From positions 1 through 22,808 of the forward strand of contig JAFARH010000107.1 of assembly GCA_019245555.1 (NCBI GenBank): DNA of 22,808 bases, written 5' to 3'. Origin of the DNA: Betaproteobacteria bacterium. GTDB taxonomy: Bacteria; Pseudomonadota; Gammaproteobacteria; Burkholderiales; SG8-39. A model generated the notes under the pieces. The model did not search any database and had not been told where the DNA came from. It saw only the letters and a list, made by a program, of their open reading frames with translations. Positions within the stretch are counted from its first letter, which is position 1. Each line of letters starts with the position of its first letter. Position numbers and translations under genes: made by a program. This document shows, in pieces, positions 11,479 to 22,398 of this stretch.

Positions 11479-13365
11479 TCAGATCTGGACGCGGCTCCCC
11501 AGCTCGATCACCCGGTTGGTGGGGATGTTGAAGTAGTCGGTGACGTTGCCGGCGTTGCGGGTCATGGCGGCGAAGATGCGGTCGCGGAAGAACGCCATGC
11601 CCGCGCCGCCGTGCACCGGCACGATCTTCTGCCGCGAGAGGAAGAACGACGTTTCCATCATGTCGAACTCGAGGCCGAGCGCGCCGCAGAGCTCGAGCGC
11701 GCGGGTCACGTCGGGGCGGTTCATGAAACCGTAGCGCACTCGGATGCGCCAGCAGCCGTGGCCCATCGACTCGCTGGTGACGCGGTCGGAGAAGGCGATC
11801 CACGGCACGTCGCGCACCTCGACGGTGAGGAAGACCACGCGCTCGTGCAGCACCTTGTTGTGGTTCAGGTTATGGAGCAGCGCGTGCGGCACGGCGTCGG
11901 GCGTCGCGGTGAGGAAGATGGCGGTGCCGGGTACGCGGTGCGGGGGGTCCTTGAAGAGCGAATCGAGGAATCCCTTCAGCGGCACCGCGCCCTCCTCCAG
12001 GCGCTGGAACAGGATCTCGCGCCCGCGGCGCCAGGTGCTCATGATGAGGAAGACGCACGCGCCGATGGCGAGCGGGAACCAGCCGCCGTCGGCGATCTTG
12101 AGGAGCGTCGCGCTGAAGAAGGTGACGTCGATGAACGCGAAGAAGCCGGTGGCGAGCACGCAGAGCCACAGCGGGTAATTCCACATGTAGCGGATGACGA
12201 AGAAGGTAAGGAGCGTATCGACCAGCATGGTCGCCGTCACCGCGACGCCGTACGCGCCGGCGAGGCGCGACGAGGAGCCGAAGCCGATCACCGCGGCGAT
12301 GACGACGAAGCACAGCGTCCAGTTGATACTCGGGATGTAGATCTGGCCCATCTCGCGCGACGAGGTGTGCACGATGGTCATGCGCGGCAGGAAGCCGAGC
12401 TGCACCGCCTGCCGGGTGAGCGAATAGGCGCCCGAGATCACGGCCTGCGAGGCGATGATCGAAGCGGCCGTCGCGAGCGCCACCATCGGATACAACGACC
12501 AGCCCGGCAACAGCAGGTAGAAGGGGTTCTCCACCGCCCCCGGATTGACCATCAGGAGCGCGCCCTGGCCGAAGTAATTGAGCATCAGCGCGGGCGCCAC
12601 CAGGCTGAACCAGGCGACGCGCACCGCGCCCTTGCCGACGTGCCCCATGTCCGCATAAAGCGCCTCGGCGCCCGTGACGGCGAGGACCACCGACCCGAGA
12701 ACGACGAACGATGCGGTGCCGTGGCTCGTGACGAAGGCGAGCGCGTGCAGCGGATTCAGCGCCGCGAGGATCGCCGGGGCCTGCACGATGCCGTAGAGAC
12801 CGGCGGCACCGATGGCGATGAACCAGGTCATGGTCACCGGGCCAAAGACCTTGCCGACCGTCGCCGTGCCGCGCACCTGCAGCGCAAAGAGGGCGAGCAG
12901 CACGCCGACCGCGATCGGCACGACATAGGGCTTGAAGGCTCTCGTGCCGACCTCGAGGCCCTCGATCGCGGAAAGCACCGTCACCGCCGGCGTGAGCACG
13001 GCGTCGCCGTAGAAAAGCGAGGCGCCGAAGATGCCGATGACGAGGAGCGGGATGCGCCACTGCTGATGCTTCTTGATCGCTTTCTGCGCGAGCGCGATCA
13101 GCGCCATGATGCCGCCCTCGCCGCGGTTGTCGGCGCGCATGATCAGCACCACGTACTTGAGCGAGACGATGATCATCAGCGCCCAGAAGATGGTCGAGAG
13201 GCCGCCGAGGATCGAGGTGTGGTTGAGCTCGATGCCGTGGTCGGGCGAGAACGTCTCCTTCACGGCGTACAGCGGGCTCGTGCCGATGTCGCCGAAGACG
13301 ATGCCGAGCGCGGCGAGGGTCAGCGCGCCGAGCGAGGACCTGCGGGTACGGCTGTCTCTTTCCAA
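11479..13365 (-). CDS. kup: Kup-type potassium uptake transporter (copy 2)
   Basis: Second Kup/HAK/KT K+ transporter, 628 aa. It carries GDIGTSPLYA (25-34), RADNRGEGG (77-85), IFGASLFYGDAVLTPA and about twelve membrane spans. The C-terminal cytoplasmic domain ends NAGNVTDYFNIPTNRVIELG, nearly the same as in copy 1, and the two proteins match along their whole length. The start is a TTG at 13365. AAGG, overlapping the TAA of the upstream coiled-coil gene, lies five bases before it, and an in-frame TAA prevents an earlier start. It is the last gene of the tightly linked minus-strand chain, so its expression is likely tied to the signalling genes upstream. Confidence 0.95.
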   Translation of the reverse strand: MERDSRTRRSSLGALTLAALGIVFGDIGTSPLYAVKETFSPDHGIELNHTSILGGLSTIFWALMIIVSLKYVVLIMRADNRGEGGIMALIALAQKAIKKHQQWRIPLLVIGIFGASLFYGDAVLTPAVTVLSAIEGLEVGTRAFKPYVVPIAVGVLLALFALQVRGTATVGKVFGPVTMTWFIAIGAAGLYGIVQAPAILAALNPLHALAFVTSHGTASFVVLGSVVLAVTGAEALYADMGHVGKGAVRVAWFSLVAPALMLNYFGQGALLMVNPGAVENPFYLLLPGWSLYPMVALATAASIIASQAVISGAYSLTRQAVQLGFLPRMTIVHTSSREMGQIYIPSINWTLCFVVIAAVIGFGSSSRLAGAYGVAVTATMLVDTLLTFFVIRYMWNYPLWLCVLATGFFAFIDVTFFSATLLKIADGGWFPLAIGACVFLIMSTWRRGREILFQRLEEGAVPLKGFLDSLFKDPPHRVPGTAIFLTATPDAVPHALLHNLNHNKVLHERVVFLTVEVRDVPWIAFSDRVTSESMGHGCWRIRVRYGFMNRPDVTRALELCGALGLEFDMMETSFFLSRQKIVPVHGGAGMAFFRDRIFAAMTRNAGNVTDYFNIPTNRVIELGSRVQI

Positions 13366-13371
13366 AACGCC

Positions 13372-15741
13372 TTAGGGACGATAGGTGCCGAGCGAACGCT
13401 CGAGGCGCAGCTGCAGCGGCTCGGCGAGCGGCGCCTTGCCCGTGGTGCGCGATCCAGCGAGGTAGCCCAGCACGACGGCCGCGATTATCGCTGCGGGTAT
13501 CCAAAGCGCCAAACCGCGGCGCGGCAGTGTTTTCAGACGATCGCGTGCCGCAGCGGCGCGCTCCTGGTCGGAAGCGAGCGTGTCAGCGGCAACCACCCGG
13601 GCGCGCATCGCCTCGTGCACCGCGGCTTCGGCAGCAATCCGCTCGTTGGCACGCTGCTCGGCCCGCCGCTCGGTCGCGCTGCGCGCTTCGAGCGCTGCCG
13701 TAGCCTTGGCCTCTGCGTTGGCCCGGTCCTCGGCCTCGCGCGCAGCGAGCTTGTCGGCCTGCTCGCGCGCGGCAAGCGCCGCCCGCAAGGTCTGTTCCCG
13801 TTCGACGCGGTCTTTCGCGAGCGCCGCAGCGCGCGCTGCAGTCGCGGCGGCCTCGGCGCTCTTGCGCTGGAGAGCCTCCTCGGCGGCAATGCGCGATTGC
13901 AGGATCGCAGTGACGCGCGATTCCACCTCGACCTTTTCGGCGGCTGAAGCCTCGCTCTTGCGCTCCGCCTCCAGGCGGCGCTGCAGCTCGCTGGCCGCCT
14001 CGGTCTCGGTCTTTTCTCGCTCGCGCGCGGCGCGCAGTGCTTCGGCATCGGCCTCGGAGCGCGCTTGCGCTCCGCGCCGCAGCTCCGCGTCAAGGGCGAC
14101 ACGCTGGCGCGCCGCGTCGGCCGCGCGCTTCTCGGCTTCGGTGCTTTTCTCCGCTTCCGCCTTGAGGGCTCGCTCGCGGGCCATGCGCGCCTGCAGCTCC
14201 GCTGCCGCTGCCGCCTCCGCGGCGGCGAGCTCCTCCGCCGCGGTCCGGCGCCGCTCCTCCGCGGCAATGCGCGCGTGCAGCTCCGCCTCGGCGCGCGCTT
14301 CGGCCTCTTCGCGCGCGCGCACCGCCTGGCTCGCCTTCTCGTCGGCTTCGGCATGGGCCTGCGCCGCGAGGCGCAGCTCCTCGTCGGCCGCGCGGCGCAC
14401 TTCGGTCGCCGCCGCCGCGGCCGCTTCCGCGGCTTCCGCGGCCTTTGCCCGCTCGGCAAGCCTTTGCTCGGCAACGGCGCGCTCACGCGTCGCGGCGGCG
14501 AGTGTTTTCTCTGCGCTGGCGCGCTCCGCCGCTTCCGCGAGCGCCTTCGCTCGTGCGTCGGCCGCTTCGCGCGCCGCCTGCGTCGCTCGCGTCTCTGCTT
14601 CATGGCGCTCCTGCGCCGCGTGCTTCAGATTCAGCTCGGCGGCGGCCCGCTCGCGCGAGAGCCGATCGGCTTCGGCCTCGGCCGCCGCTCGCGCTGCCGC
14701 CGCCTGCAGCGCCGCCTGCTCGGCCGCTGCCGCCGCGCGCGCGCGCTGCGCCTGGGCCTCCTCCGCTCTTGAGCGCTCGAGCGCCGCGCTGCTAGCCGCC
14801 TCGTCCGCCCGCGCGCGCGCTTCCGCCTCGGCCTGCGCCTTCGCACTCGCCTCGGCGGCGGCGCGTGCAGACTGGCTCGCCACCGTGTCGACCCGGACGC
14901 GCTGCTCGGCGGCGCGCTTGGCCGTTGCCTCGGCCTCGGCTCTCTCCTCGGCGAGGCGTGCAGCCTTGCCGTCGGCCGTTGCCCTCGCTTGTGCTTCGCG
15001 CGATAGCTTCTCCTCGGCGGCGAGGCGCTCGCGTGCCGCCTCCAGGGCGACCGCATCCGCCTCGGCGCGCCTGAGTGCCTTCGCCCCGGCATCGGCTTCG
15101 GCCGCCCGTCGTTCCTCGGCGAGTTGAGCTGCGGCTGTTTCCTTCTCCGCGCGCACCCTCGCCTGCTCCATCGCAGCGCGCTCCATCTCGGCGCGCTCGC
15201 GTGCAAGACGACCCGCGTCGGCCTCCGCCGCGACCTTGTCCTCCGCCTCGCGGCGCAGCTTGTCCTCGGCAACCTTCTTCTCGCGTGCCGCTTCCAGCGC
15301 GCGATTTTCAGCCTGCACTCGATCGCGCACCGCGCGCCGCGCCTGCTCCTCCGCGGCTGCGCGTTCGCGCACCGCGGCCGCCGCCTGCGCCTGCGCTTCG
15401 GCACGCTCCCTGGCGTGCGCGGCGGCTTCCTCTTCCTTCTGCCGCCGGCTCTCGGCGAGCGCCGCCGATTTCCTCTCCGCCTCTTCGCGGCTCTTCGCCT
15501 CGGAAAGCGCCTGCGCTTCGGCACGCTCGCGCTCGGAGACGAGGCGCGCCGCCTTCGCCTCGGCTTCGGCGCGCGCATGCGCCAGGCGTCGCAGCTCGAC
15601 CTCGGCGGCCTGGCGCTCGCGCGCGAGATCGAGCCCGCGCTTCTCCTCTGCCACGCGCGTGCTCGCCACCTGCTCGGCCGCCTTCTCGCGCTCGATCCGC
15701 TCGCGCTCGGCGTTCTGCAGCTGGTCGTAGAGCTTGCTCAT
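13372..15741 (-). CDS. Giant alanine/glutamate/arginine-rich coiled-coil protein with C-terminal membrane anchor
   Basis: 789-aa protein of unknown function. Residues 1-12 read MSKLYDQLQNAE. Residues 13-726 can be divided without any gap into 51 units of 14 residues, loosely [RE]-E-R-x-x-A-E-x-x-A-x-x-x-A. This predicts one very long Ala-cored coiled coil. A short basic linker (LKTLPRRG) leads to a membrane span at about 744-763 and a 26-residue tail with TTGKAPLAEP, so the rod is probably cytoplasmic and tail-anchored. ATG at 15741 overlaps the stop of the receiver-HD-GYP gene (ATGA), and kup copy 2 starts 6 bp after its stop. It could be a scaffold or tether. The low-complexity composition makes homology assignment unreliable. 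Confidence 0.85.
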   Translation of the reverse strand: MSKLYDQLQNAERERIEREKAAEQVASTRVAEEKRGLDLARERQAAEVELRRLAHARAEAEAKAARLVSERERAEAQALSEAKSREEAERKSAALAESRRQKEEEAAAHARERAEAQAQAAAAVRERAAAEEQARRAVRDRVQAENRALEAAREKKVAEDKLRREAEDKVAAEADAGRLARERAEMERAAMEQARVRAEKETAAAQLAEERRAAEADAGAKALRRAEADAVALEAARERLAAEEKLSREAQARATADGKAARLAEERAEAEATAKRAAEQRVRVDTVASQSARAAAEASAKAQAEAEARARADEAASSAALERSRAEEAQAQRARAAAAAEQAALQAAAARAAAEAEADRLSRERAAAELNLKHAAQERHEAETRATQAAREAADARAKALAEAAERASAEKTLAAATRERAVAEQRLAERAKAAEAAEAAAAAATEVRRAADEELRLAAQAHAEADEKASQAVRAREEAEARAEAELHARIAAEERRRTAAEELAAAEAAAAAELQARMARERALKAEAEKSTEAEKRAADAARQRVALDAELRRGAQARSEADAEALRAAREREKTETEAASELQRRLEAERKSEASAAEKVEVESRVTAILQSRIAAEEALQRKSAEAAATAARAAALAKDRVEREQTLRAALAAREQADKLAAREAEDRANAEAKATAALEARSATERRAEQRANERIAAEAAVHEAMRARVVAADTLASDQERAAAARDRLKTLPRRGLALWIPAAIIAAVVLGYLAGSRTTGKAPLAEPLQLRLERSLGTYRP
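13564..15705 (-). repeat. 51 tandem degenerate 42-bp units encoding a 14-residue coiled-coil repeat
   Basis: Translated units align end to end with no insertion or deletion. Examples are RERAEAQAQAAAAV, RERAAAEEQARRAV, RDRVQAENRALEAA and RERLAAEEKLSREA. Arg at position 3, Ala at 6, Glu/Asp at 7 and Ala at 10 and 14 are the most constant. The DNA units have diverged, so this is an old repeat conserved at protein level, not a recent microsatellite-like expansion. Confidence 0.85.
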
Positions 15742-16823
15742 TTGGCTTTCTTCGCCGCCGGCTTGGCAAAGTCCAGGTTGATGATCTCGCCCAGCTCATC
15801 TGCAAGCTGCTCGCGCACCTTCAGCATCGCTGGCAGCGCCGCCTTGAAGGCTTCGACGACCTTCGGATCGAAGCGCTTGCCCGAGAGTCGCTCGATCTCC
15901 GCCGCGGCTTCTTCGGGCTTGCGCGGCTCGTGATAGAACTGGGTCTCGGTCATGGATTCGAAGGTATCGACGACTGCCATGACGCGTCCCGGCCACGGAA
16001 TCGCCTCGCCTTTCAGTCCGTCGGGATAGCCCGAGCCGTCCCAGTTCTCGTGATGCGTGAGCGCAACCTGCCGGGCGAGCTTGAGGAGGGGATCATCCTG
16101 TTCGCCAATGATATCGGCGCCGATTTTCGGATGCCGGCGGATGCGTTCCCAATCCGGGGCCGAAAGCTTCTCCTTCTTCTGCAGGATCTCCGAAGGCACG
16201 CCGAGCTTGCCGATGTCGTGCAACGGGGAAGCAATGGCCATTGCCTCGCACACCGGCGGCTTCGCGCCGGCAGCGCGCGCCACGAGCTTCGCGTATTCCG
16301 AAAGCCGCACTGCACGGTTGCCCGCCGATGCGGTCTCGTGCATCTGCATGGCACGACCGAGGCGCAGCATGAGCTCGCTGCGCGTCTTCTCAAGCTGCGC
16401 GGTGCGCTCCTGGACTATGCGCTCGAGCTCCTGGCGCTGGTTGGAGAGCGCAAGGTGCATGCGCACGCGCGCCATCAGCACCTTGGAGTTGATCGGCTTT
16501 GTGACGTAGTCGACCGCGCCAAGCTCCAGGCCCTCGACCTGTGCCTGCGCCTCGTTCTTTCCGGTGAGGAAGATGACCGGGATGTCGGCCGTCCGCGGTT
16601 CGTCCTTGAGCGCCCGGCATACCTCGAAGCCCGACACGTTCGGCATCTCGACGTCCAGCAGGATCAGGTCCGGTCGTGGCTCACCGCTCGCTGCCGCAAT
16701 CGCGTCCCCGCCGTTGTCCACTGTGATGACCTTGTAGCTCGTACCCAGGGCCTTGCTCATCAGCGCGAGGAGGTCCGTCGCGTCGTCGACGGCAAGGATG
16801 ACCGGCTGGGCTTTGGCGTTCAC
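15738..16823 (-). CDS. Response regulator with HD-GYP-type output domain
   Basis: 361-aa two-domain regulator. The receiver (about 7-122) has Asp12/13, phospho-acceptor Asp57 (ILLDVEMP) and Lys109 (YVTKP). A short coiled linker (129-150) leads to an HD-GYP domain, a family that hydrolyses c-di-GMP. It has HD at 202-203 (LHDIGK), His231 (RRHPKIG), HH at 257-258 (THHEN), GSGYP (263-267) and Asp286. The usual Glu and His preceding the HD pair are replaced: the region reads ETASAGNRAVR, with Ser166 and Arg170 at the expected positions. Activity is therefore uncertain. GTG start at 16823 overlaps the TGA of the binding-protein gene, and its stop overlaps the ATG of the coiled-coil gene. Confidence 0.9.
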   Translation of the reverse strand: MNAKAQPVILAVDDATDLLALMSKALGTSYKVITVDNGGDAIAAASGEPRPDLILLDVEMPNVSGFEVCRALKDEPRTADIPVIFLTGKNEAQAQVEGLELGAVDYVTKPINSKVLMARVRMHLALSNQRQELERIVQERTAQLEKTRSELMLRLGRAMQMHETASAGNRAVRLSEYAKLVARAAGAKPPVCEAMAIASPLHDIGKLGVPSEILQKKEKLSAPDWERIRRHPKIGADIIGEQDDPLLKLARQVALTHHENWDGSGYPDGLKGEAIPWPGRVMAVVDTFESMTETQFYHEPRKPEEAAAEIERLSGKRFDPKVVEAFKAALPAMLKVREQLADELGEIINLDFAKPAAKKAK

Positions 16824-17527
16824 TCCGGGGGAGTGTAGCCCGCCTGTGCAAGACGAGCCCTGGCCTGCGGCCCTGTCAGGTGATCGATAAACGCGAGCGC
16901 GGCCGGCGATGCCTTGATCGGCACCGCCACGTACACGGTGTATTTCTGCAGCTCGCGCGGCAGCTCGCCGACGAGCTTCACGCCCTTCACTGGCATGATC
17001 TCGCTGATCTGGTGGATGCCGAGCTCGATCTCGCCCTTGCCTACGGGCTCGACGATGTAACCGCCGGAGCCGAGCTTCGCCTTCGCGTTGACCTCGCTCG
17101 CGATACCGAGCTTCTCGAGCACTTCCGCGACATGCTTTCCGCTCGTACCCACCTTCGGATCGATGTAGACGATCGACTTCGCCGCGAGCAGCGTTTTCCT
17201 GAATGCCTCGACGGTCGAAATATCGGGCGACGGCGCCTTCTCATTCACCGCAACGCCGATACCAACGCGCGCGATGGCTCGCGCACCCGGTTTTGCTTGC
17301 AGGCGGGAAACCATCTCCTGCGTAACGATCACCACGTCGACGTTCGCGCCTTGCGAAAGCGACTCGAAGAGCTTGCCCATCGGCTGGAATTGCACATCGA
17401 CCTCGCCGCCCGGAAAGGACGCCGCCATCGGCTCGACCAGCGACTTCGCTGCGCCGCCCGAGAGCACGTGAAGCTCTTGCGCGCCCACCGCAATGGGAAG
17501 CGCGGCCAATAGCAGGAAAAGCTTCAT
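16820..17527 (-). CDS. Stand-alone ModA-like periplasmic substrate-binding protein
   Basis: 235-aa protein with a signal peptide (MKLFLLLAALPIAVGA, cleavage likely before QEL), placing it in the periplasm. The mature part resembles the molybdate-binding (ModA/SBP_bac_11) class: ELHVLSGGAAKSLVEPM at the start, a DVVIVT segment (64-69), the hinge region IVYIDPKVGTSGKHV (119-133), GEIELGIHQISEI (165-177) and a C-terminal FIDHLTGPQARARLAQAGY (213-231). No permease or ATPase gene is nearby, and the ligand cannot be assigned. ATG at 17527 overlaps the stop of the GGDEF-EAL gene (ATGA). The frame is open further upstream, but that part is the shadow of the previous gene. It may serve as a sensor subunit, not as a transporter component. 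Confidence 0.85.
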   Translation of the reverse strand: MKLFLLLAALPIAVGAQELHVLSGGAAKSLVEPMAASFPGGEVDVQFQPMGKLFESLSQGANVDVVIVTQEMVSRLQAKPGARAIARVGIGVAVNEKAPSPDISTVEAFRKTLLAAKSIVYIDPKVGTSGKHVAEVLEKLGIASEVNAKAKLGSGGYIVEPVGKGEIELGIHQISEIMPVKGVKLVGELPRELQKYTVYVAVPIKASPAALAFIDHLTGPQARARLAQAGYTPPE

Positions 17528-19227
17528 GCCCTCATCCCTTTCTGTCGAGCGCGATCGAGGAGTTGCGCGAATTGCTCGGGCGGAATCGGCTCGCCGTAGA
17601 GGAAGCCCTGCACCTGGTCGCAGCCATGGCGCTTGAGGAAGTGCAGCTGGGCATCGGTCTCGACGCCTTCGGCGATTACTCTCAGGTGGAGCGCGTGGCC
17701 GAGCGAGATGATCGCCTGCGCGAGCACGCCATCCTCGGCCTCCGAGCCGCCGCGGATGTCGCGCACGAATGAGCGGTCGATCTTCAGCGTGTCGATCGGC
17801 AAGTCTTTGAGGTAAGAGAGCGACGAGTAGCCCGTGCCAAAGTCGTCGACTGAAAGGCTGACGCCGAGCGACTTCAGTCCCTGCAACGTCGCGATCGCGG
17901 CCTCGACGTTGTGCATGACCATGCTCTCGGTGAGCGCCGTCTCGTGCATAGACAGATCGAGCGCCGTCTCTTGCAGGATGCGCGACACGGTGCGCACCAG
18001 GCCCTCGGCGCGGAATTGGCGCGCCGAGAGATTGACCGAGACGACGCCCGGCGTGAGCCCCTGGTCGAGCCACGCGCGCGTCTGCCGCGCTGCCTCGTGG
18101 ATCACCCATTCGCCGAGCTGCACGATGAGGCCGGTTTCTTCCGCGATCGGGATGAAGCGCGCGGGCCGCACGAGGCCCCACTCCGGATGGCTCCAGCGCA
18201 CGAGTGCCTCGGCGCCGATGATTGAACCCGAGCGCAGGTCCACCTTCTGCTGGTAGTGAAGCATGAACTCCTTGCGCTCCAGCGCCCGGCGCAACGCGTG
18301 CTCGAGCGCGAGGCGGTCGTTCACGCGCTCGTTCATCTCGGAGGTGTAGAACTGGAAGTTCGAGCGTCCGTGCTCCTTGGCGCGGTACATGGCCGCGTCG
18401 GCGTTCTTCAGCAACGTATCGACGTCGCGACCATCCTGCGGATATAGGCTGATGCCTGCGCTGCTGGTGACGTAGAGCTCCTTGCCGTCGATCGTGATCG
18501 GCTCGGAGACCTTCGCGGTGATCCGCTGCATGGCGCGGTAGATGACTTCTTCGTTCGACTGGTCGTTCAGGATCAGCACGAACTCGTCGCCGCCGACCCG
18601 GCCGACCGTATCGCCTTCGCGCAGCACGGAGCGCAGCCGTTCGCCCATCGCCTTGAGCAGCTTGTCGCCGGTGGAATGGCCGAGGCTGTCATTCACGAAC
18701 TTGAAGTGATCGAGGTCCATGAACACGACGGCGATGTTCCGGGGATTTCTCTGCGAGTACACCGTCTGCCGGAGCCGGTCGTGCAGCAGGTTGCGGTTCG
18801 GCAGCCCGGTGAGGGCGTCGTAATTCGCCTGGTGCTCGAGCTGGACCTGGTAGCGCTTGCGCTCGATGGAGTAGTGCATCGAGCGGAGCAATAGCTCGCG
18901 GTCGAGGCGACTCTTGACGAGGTAATCCTGAGCGCCGCCTTTTACTGCCGAGAGCGCGAGTGAATCGTCGTCGTGCCCGGTAAGCACGATGATCGGCACG
19001 GCCGGCGCGTGCGTATAGACCTTGGTGAAGGTCTCGAGGCCGTAGCTATCGGGCAGCGAGAGGTCCAGGATGATGAGCGCGATCTCGCCGGCGGAGAGAT
19101 GCTCGAGCCCCTTGGCGAGGCGGTCCGCAAAATGGATCGTGAACGGCGCGCGCGGGTCCTCCGCAATCATCTCGCGGATCAGGCGAGCGTCGCCGGGGTT
19201 GTCCTCGATGAGGAGGACGTTGTGCAT
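17524..19227 (-). CDS. Response regulator with GGDEF and EAL domains (c-di-GMP turnover)
   Basis: 567-aa three-domain protein. The receiver (1-120) has phospho-acceptor Asp55 (IILDLSLPD) and Lys105. The GGDEF domain (about 131-295) keeps GGDEF at 212-216 and has an RxxD inhibitory site (Arg203-Asp206) at the standard five-residue distance, so it is expected to make c-di-GMP under product feedback. The EAL domain (about 305-560) keeps EAL (340-342), TES (433-435), DDFGTGYSSL (461-470), KIDRSFV and IAEGVET (518-524), so it is expected to degrade it. Both domains look intact, and the direction of activity cannot be told from sequence. ATG at 19227 lies 4 bp after the stop of the single-domain receiver gene, with no own ribosome binding site. 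Confidence 0.95.
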   Translation of the reverse strand: MHNVLLIEDNPGDARLIREMIAEDPRAPFTIHFADRLAKGLEHLSAGEIALIILDLSLPDSYGLETFTKVYTHAPAVPIIVLTGHDDDSLALSAVKGGAQDYLVKSRLDRELLLRSMHYSIERKRYQVQLEHQANYDALTGLPNRNLLHDRLRQTVYSQRNPRNIAVVFMDLDHFKFVNDSLGHSTGDKLLKAMGERLRSVLREGDTVGRVGGDEFVLILNDQSNEEVIYRAMQRITAKVSEPITIDGKELYVTSSAGISLYPQDGRDVDTLLKNADAAMYRAKEHGRSNFQFYTSEMNERVNDRLALEHALRRALERKEFMLHYQQKVDLRSGSIIGAEALVRWSHPEWGLVRPARFIPIAEETGLIVQLGEWVIHEAARQTRAWLDQGLTPGVVSVNLSARQFRAEGLVRTVSRILQETALDLSMHETALTESMVMHNVEAAIATLQGLKSLGVSLSVDDFGTGYSSLSYLKDLPIDTLKIDRSFVRDIRGGSEAEDGVLAQAIISLGHALHLRVIAEGVETDAQLHFLKRHGCDQVQGFLYGEPIPPEQFAQLLDRARQKGMRA

Positions 19228-19231
19228 CTAG

Positions 19232-19674
19232 TCAGTGACCATTCGGCGGCAGCGTCACGACCGTGAGCCAGAAGATGTCGATCGACTTCACCACCACGAT
19301 GAACTTCTCGAGGTCGACGGGCTTCGTGACGTAGCAATTCGCGTGCAGGTTATAGGTGCGAAGCACGTCCTCTTCAGCCTTGGACGTGGTGAGCACGACC
19401 ACCGGGATACGCTTCAGTGCCTCGTCGGACTTGATGTCCTGCAGCACCTCGCGGCCGTCTTTCTTCGGCAGGTTGAGGTCGAGCAGGATGATGTCCGGGC
19501 GCGGCGCATTGGCGTGCTTGCCCTTGCGCTGGAGAAACTCCATCGCCTCCACGCCATCCTTGGCCCAGTGGAGCTTGTGGAAGACCTTGCCTTCCTTCAG
19601 TGCCTCGCGCGTGAGGCGCTCGTCGCCGGGGTTGTCTTCCACCAGCAGGATCTCGATTGGCGAACGGCCGTCGG

Positions 19675-19678
<4 letters not shown>
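19232..19678 (-). CDS. Single-domain response regulator (Rcp1-like receiver)
   Basis: 148-aa receiver with no output domain. It shows LLVEDNPGDERL (11-22), phospho-acceptor Asp67 (IILLDLNLPKKDG), Thr97 (VVVLTTS) and Lys119 (YVTKPVD), and ends with DIFWLTVVTLPPN. That ending is typical of small regulators paired with phytochrome-like or PAS histidine kinases (Rcp1 group). ATG at 19678 overlaps the stop of the histidine-kinase gene (ATGA), so the pair is co-translated. It probably acts as a phosphate shuttle or sink, or passes the signal on to the receiver-containing c-di-GMP proteins encoded downstream. The last step is inference. Confidence 0.95.

Positions 19679-22398
<2,720 letters not shown>

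Follow-up and report, generated by a model that had tools for sequence, protein, structure and literature searches.

PodJ, a polar scaffold of Caulobacter crescentus, combines cytoplasmic coiled coils with a membrane span and a periplasmic part and recruits a signalling protein; in the accessible part of its description its coiled coils are six and separate, a further region is disordered, and the periplasmic part carries TPR and peptidoglycan-binding domains (PMC8980812). In FrzS and AglZ from Myxococcus xanthus a receiver is linked to a coiled coil, 258 residues long in FrzS, which steers where the protein localises, and the receiver is described in the available sections as atypical, with no phospho-Asp (PMC1974792). 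Alacoils and related alanine-core coiled coils (PMC5347031) and honeybee silk (PMC12284834) have Ala-rich helical interfaces, and single alpha-helix (SAH) domains contain much R and E, paired from i to i+4 (PMC5347031), as far as the excerpts of these sources go.

The locus compared here lies in a contig of a betaproteobacterium known solely from environmental DNA, whose genome (2.44 Mb, 466 contigs) is 77.7% complete. The window, that is, the whole stretch of DNA analysed (22,808 nucleotides), contains seven minus-strand genes running in the same direction, with adjacent genes overlapping by up to 4 nt or separated by up to 6 nt. One of them encodes a long repetitive protein, hereafter the rod (P0001), whose residue numbers are used below.

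13372..15741, minus strand: rod gene, 789 residues (P0001), ATG at 15741, stop at 13372
15706..15741, minus strand: N-terminal motif, residues 1–12, family form MS[KR][LI]xDxLKxAE
13564..15705, minus strand: 51 gap-free 14-residue units, residues 13–726
15202..15351, minus strand: residues 131–180, best match of the fused-rod start
13519..13563, minus strand: linker, residues 727–741, basic towards its end
13462..13518, minus strand: membrane span predicted by hydropathy, about residues 742–760
13375..13461, minus strand: C-terminal tail, residues 761–789, with a conserved terminal LxL[KR]L[DE] segment
15738..16823, minus strand: receiver-HD-GYP protein (P0003), likely partner, 4-nt overlap with the rod gene
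16820..17527, minus strand: substrate-binding protein (PF13531), ATG at 17527, neighbour at genus level only
17524..19227, minus strand: receiver-GGDEF-EAL protein, genus-level neighbour
19232..19678, minus strand: receiver protein, genus-level neighbour
19675..22398, minus strand: multi-PAS histidine kinase, genus-level neighbour
11479..13365, minus strand: Kup K+ transporter, 6 nt downstream with a TTG taken as its start, a neighbour only

The rod would resemble PodJ if its predicted helix, for which the fusions described below suggest a cytoplasmic side, and the one predicted span after it are as they seem; set against the accessible description of PodJ, it differs in being one uninterrupted rod of 14-residue units with a tail of about 29 residues. 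The periplasmic TPR and peptidoglycan-binding domains of PodJ are absent from P0001, which has no Pfam match and only that short tail. FrzS and AglZ recall the fused receiver-HD-GYP-rod proteins, since receiver and coil share one chain, but P0001 itself carries no receiver; only its fused relatives do, with the HD-GYP domain in between, and the available sections on FrzS and AglZ mention neither an HD-GYP domain nor a tail anchor. From the Ala-rich interfaces of Alacoils and silk, as partially described, the rod is set apart by a strict 14-residue unit with R3 and E7 constant every second heptad, and by being bacterial and membrane-anchored. Compared with the AEEEXXX designs of SAH type in the accessible text (PMC5347031), it has more alanine and a hydrophobic seam of period 3.50. 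P0001 has no match in Pfam or NCBIfam, and the rod family is nameless in these libraries; against PDB sequences nothing was returned at E<=0.01. The sequence-only reading knew of no described system of this kind, and the literature on 14-residue repeats, coiled coils, and HD-GYP proteins with a coiled coil, Kup or a membrane anchor yielded no such protein among the papers listed.

The N-terminal motif, the 14-mer rod, the C-terminal span and the LxL[KR]L[DE]-like tail are all present in P0001 and recur in seven more full-length HD-GYP-linked rods (tails judged by eye). A linker, single membrane span and short tail had been proposed from the translation, and hydropathy bears this out with one hydrophobic span at about residues 742–760. 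The protein is 35% Ala and 41% charged, with zero proline and zero aromatic residues. The proposal of 51 consecutive gap-free 14-mers over residues 13–726 is confirmed by division of the translation and by lag statistics. Self-identity against shuffles is high at lags 14, 28, 42 and 56 (z = 8.0, 10.5, 9.8 and 8.9, respectively) and below chance at lags 7 and 21 (z −3.8 and −4.3); the repeat period is therefore 14 and not 7. Position 3 of the unit is R in 40 of 51 units, and position 7 is E in 37 and D in nine. A cyclic-profile path runs through residues 1–718 in a single phase with no break, and the same path found no repeat in three shuffled control proteins.

Across the rod family the constant positions are R3 (81%), E7 (80%, with D in 10%), A6 (66%), A10 (66%, with L in 19%) and A14 (73%). 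At 3.5 residues per turn, one helix face holds positions 3/10, 7/14 and 6/13, and this face alternates by heptad, with R3 and E7 in one and A10 and A14 in the next. The hydrophobic seam at period 3.5 that marks a coiled coil was found in all four rods computed (peak at 3.50, power 90–122 versus a shuffled maximum of about 38–40, sd 11–12). The rod would self-associate as a putative coiled coil. AlphaFold2 places helices of P0001 at residues 2–255, 270–412, 420–593, 601–736 and 748–761 in a monomer model of low confidence (mean pLDDT 66.8, pTM 0.24), and the long helix is thus a prediction only.

Phase was followed across the family with a leave-one-out cyclic profile. The 35 proteins or fragments comprised 10 linked to HD-GYP, two intact fused proteins and 23 from rod-profile loci of family genomes, of which two probably supply the ends that the G009 and G010 rods lack. 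The path assigned 19,484 residues with 29 phase breaks, 14 of which fall in L202 and L211, in a sample that leans to in-phase members because these were collected with a 14-mer profile. No break occurs in 24 of the 35, which supports the earlier suggestion that register is constrained, here across the rod family. The longest single in-phase run extends for 1135 residues in L200, where the start codon is undefined. When five rods are aligned globally, only 12 of the 37 gaps have a length divisible by 14, and our judgement of register rests on the phase path rather than on these gaps. When orthologues are compared, as had been proposed, most keep phase while the number of units changes; the close orthologue in G001 departs from this with a 2-residue shift. 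In a packed pair, the bulky polar layers (R3/E7) of one helix would sit on the small layers (A10/A14) of its partner, which would let helices pack only in 14-residue steps, so that units may be gained or lost and register should not slip. Such packing would explain why phase is kept modulo 14.

The gene upstream of the rod encodes P0003, a predicted c-di-GMP phosphodiesterase by its PF13487 match (E 2.7e-35) and its HD and HHExxDGxGYP motifs, which are intact (HDIGK at 202, HHENWDGSGYP at 257). Its receiver retains the segment LLDVEMP, presumably the phospho-Asp segment, in contrast to the receivers of FrzS and AglZ. The loci scanned were the window, L022–L035 and L060–L159, reported only where the HD-GYP match reached 1e-60; among them a 14-mer rod is adjacent or fused where the HD-GYP is at least 51% identical to that of the window. 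In all 10 adjacent loci measured the rod ATG overlaps the HD-GYP stop by 4 nt; the eleventh, in G094, is cut by a contig end. A midpoint-rooted tree of 37 HD-GYP rows, with states coded by the author and some contigs ending within about 1 kb, gathers 11 adjacent, seven fused and five rod-less members in one 23-row clade (99/94), and the 14 rows outside it have no adjoining rod. This clade splits into the fused group (96/91) and a group of the 11 adjacent and five rod-less rows (98/94). Of the rod-less members (G005, G012, G061, G097 and G074), G074 alone matches the profile at another site, some 7 kb off. Within the window's genus a rod match is found in seven of 11 genomes; those without are G002, G003 and G008 (56–63% complete) and G005, where HD-GYP and kup follow each other with the rod missing between them. 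Absence from close relatives, named earlier as a sign of unconstrained sequence, was seen in G005. Most of the nearest named records that bear an HD-GYP gene are environmental bins of betaproteobacteria or Burkholderiales. L087 and L088 have Bordetella parapertussis in their titles, yet in the HD-GYP tree they fall among other environmental bins of betaproteobacteria, and the titles look wrong.

The gene had been placed between a c-di-GMP-type regulator and a K+ transporter with overlapping or near-overlapping junctions. Its 4-nt overlap with the response-regulator HD-GYP gene stands, and the 6-nt distance to kup holds if TTG is the start. The firm neighbour of the rod is the response-regulator HD-GYP gene, not Kup. 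The rod is followed by a kup gene in the window, G001, G006, G007 and G060 (at about 0.8–1 kb in G001, G007 and G060), and rod fragments are followed by one in G004, G009 and G010. A general link to K+ transport is unsupported and was rejected: kup is downstream only in the window's genus and G060, genes other than kup follow the rod in L062–L064, and in G005, G012 and G074, which have no rod at this position, kup still comes after HD-GYP. Beyond Kup the window holds kdpABCDE and a second kup; the two kup genes (369–2315 and 11479–13365, 71% identical over the match) flank the opposite-strand kdp set. A link to the periplasmic substrate-binding protein was also rejected, with a match in four of the seven loci that have upstream sequence (genus and G060): present in the window, G001, G009 and G010, absent from G006, G007 and G060.

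Receiver, HD-GYP domain and rod are fused in one uninterrupted chain in L070 and L216, and in P0002 and L219 as far as the sequence reaches; L216 and L219 are from genus g105, where L217 looks to be the contig of L086. The HD-GYP domain is N-terminal in these fusions, which would place the rod in the cytoplasm. The block at which the fused rod starts aligns best to residue 131 of the window rod or its equivalent in five of five unfused rods, for two of the seven fused sequences; the other five lack the block.

Five of nine fused loci are interrupted (L068, L069, L086, L087 and L088), four by an in-frame TAG and L069 by a frame change and a TAG; in L087 the frame may also change near the end. 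All eight full-length unfused rods are free of interruptions. Genuine decay, errors of assembly and some form of regulation are all candidate causes. Reassignment of TAG is so far unsupported as the cause: rpoB has no stop in G082, G107 and G114 (full match) or in the partial match of G115, with no match in G116, and other open frames in the interrupted loci terminate in TAG. Separately, G010 and G009 hold a second receiver-HD-GYP paralogue, 44–47% identical, fused to a different and more heptad-like coil (L031 2081–4945, also L119, with a membrane span in L031; L032 5331–7091), which makes a second HD-GYP-coil fusion.

Rods also occur away from HD-GYP genes. With profile A3, matches at E<=1e-6 come from 32 of the 98 family genomes, more than the HD-GYP-linked ones, and matches at E<=1e-9 from 14 of the 300 genomes sampled across the order, the window's own included. 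Among 23 further rod ORFs the N-terminal motif was found in 11 by pattern, in L203 by eye and in L194, where GTG is the start; contig ends truncate several of the rest. Where the 3′ end is present, a span is predicted by hydropathy in 16 of 19 and an LxL[KR][LM][DE]-like tail was seen by eye in 16 of 19. Their neighbours vary (panE, holA, hscA), and HD-GYP is therefore not the sole context; L189 has panE followed by the rod, and L063 has panE, HD-GYP and the rod. The first rod gene of G082 seems to be followed by another of MSKLFDQLRQAE type (L202 5846–10037). Soluble repeat proteins of genus g29, from another family of the same order, were found through A3 (L218, L220–L223, L226 and L227). 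They resemble the rod in 14-mer composition and differ in their MTFKSRLL-type N-terminus and in having no span near the C-terminus and no tail in seven of seven loci.

The rod ORF is a gene under selection, with an excess of third-position changes. Over the first 180 codons dN/dS is 0.12 for window/G010, 0.14 for window/G009 and 0.19 for G010/G009 (HD-GYP 0.32, 0.23 and 0.25, respectively), values that are rough because synonymous distances are 0.4–1.0. Five more distant pairs give 0.28–0.51, no lower than HD-GYP where computed (0.31–0.42), and the last 200 codons give 0.31–0.48; strong N-terminal constraint is thus established for the three nearest genomes only. That the rod is unconstrained low-complexity sequence of a GC-rich genome, as its Ala/Arg-rich composition and the long open frames of the opposite strand might suggest, is scarcely credible: the codon data (third-position excess, dN/dS of 0.12–0.19) contradict it, as do the conserved ends, the retained phase and the invariable overlap in the 10 loci. 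The molecular ruler of fixed length proposed in the sequence-only reading is very improbable, and selection on total length was not borne out. The spacing between two conserved blocks is an identical 518 residues in the window and G006, as a ruler would have it, but 406 in G007 and 464 in G001 (modulo 14: 0, 0, 0 and 2, in that order), and the eight full-length HD-GYP-linked rods measure 789, 711, 670, 740, 796, 395, 390 and 818 residues, or about 17 to 51 units. With lengths of 390–818 residues not conserved, a fixed ruler was rejected and is contradicted across the genus; a per-species ruler is possible.

Our leading interpretation, to which we give about even weight, is that the rod is a tail-anchored, cytoplasmic, Ala-rich helix by which the response-regulator HD-GYP phosphodiesterase encoded just upstream is tethered to, or scaffolded at, the membrane. 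A tether or scaffold with a tail anchor had been among the earlier ideas, and the pairing, the fusions and the predicted span support it. The two proteins would bind, and the rod would act as the inner-membrane anchor of HD-GYP, in cis where the two are fused and in trans in the lineage of the window; an N-terminal cytoplasmic enzyme in the fusions together with one span would put the tail in the periplasm. The rod, a conserved repeat kept in phase, is paired with or fused to HD-GYPs of one clade. Counting against a tether are the varied stand-alone contexts, the five rod-less clade members, the interrupted fused loci, the distant-pair dN/dS, the low share of gaps that are multiples of 14 and the low AlphaFold2 confidence. 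The stand-alone rods imply a broader scaffold, which HD-GYP may have entered a single time. In the rival reading of this kind the rod is a general filament or scaffold anchored in the membrane, serving shape, polarity or the envelope, with several clients and HD-GYP recruited once, in one clade. The reach of A3 beyond HD-GYP-linked genomes, the spans of the further rod ORFs and the panE arrangements of L189 and L063 speak for it, but the varied neighbours hint at no common role and the HD-GYP pairing is tight where present, and we consider it rather doubtful. A monomeric SAH spacer, still tethering and free of 14-residue locking, is unlikely. R to E(+4) pairs are strongly enriched (z 7.5–9.6, five rods; E to R(+4) z −0.9 to 2.1, +3 pairs at chance), and the four window-type rods are 39–41% charged with zero proline; yet they are also 34–37% alanine with the seam at 3.50 in four of four, Ala-faced designs are mostly multimers in the accessible text of PMC5347031, and an SAH has no need for strict 14-residue phase across hundreds of residues.

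Returning to the HD-GYP tether, its purpose would be to position c-di-GMP breakdown at the inner membrane or concentrate it there, and the anchored enzyme would make hydrolysis local and receiver-controlled. A more specific form is conceivable, though less likely than not, in which a register-locked, length-adjustable intracellular tether sets where the receiver-controlled phosphodiesterase acts relative to the inner membrane; whole 14-residue units would be gained or lost in evolution, and the alternating R/E and Ala layers would forbid slippage. Rods range from fewer than 20 to about 80 units, which as helix throughout would span some 35 to 170 nm. It is an open question by what means bacteria confine c-di-GMP signals to one place. 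If the tether reading is true, a rod devoted to holding an HD-GYP enzyme at the membrane would achieve this in a direct, physical way. Natural rods of common phase and differing unit number offer a ready set of length variants for studying the effects of distance.
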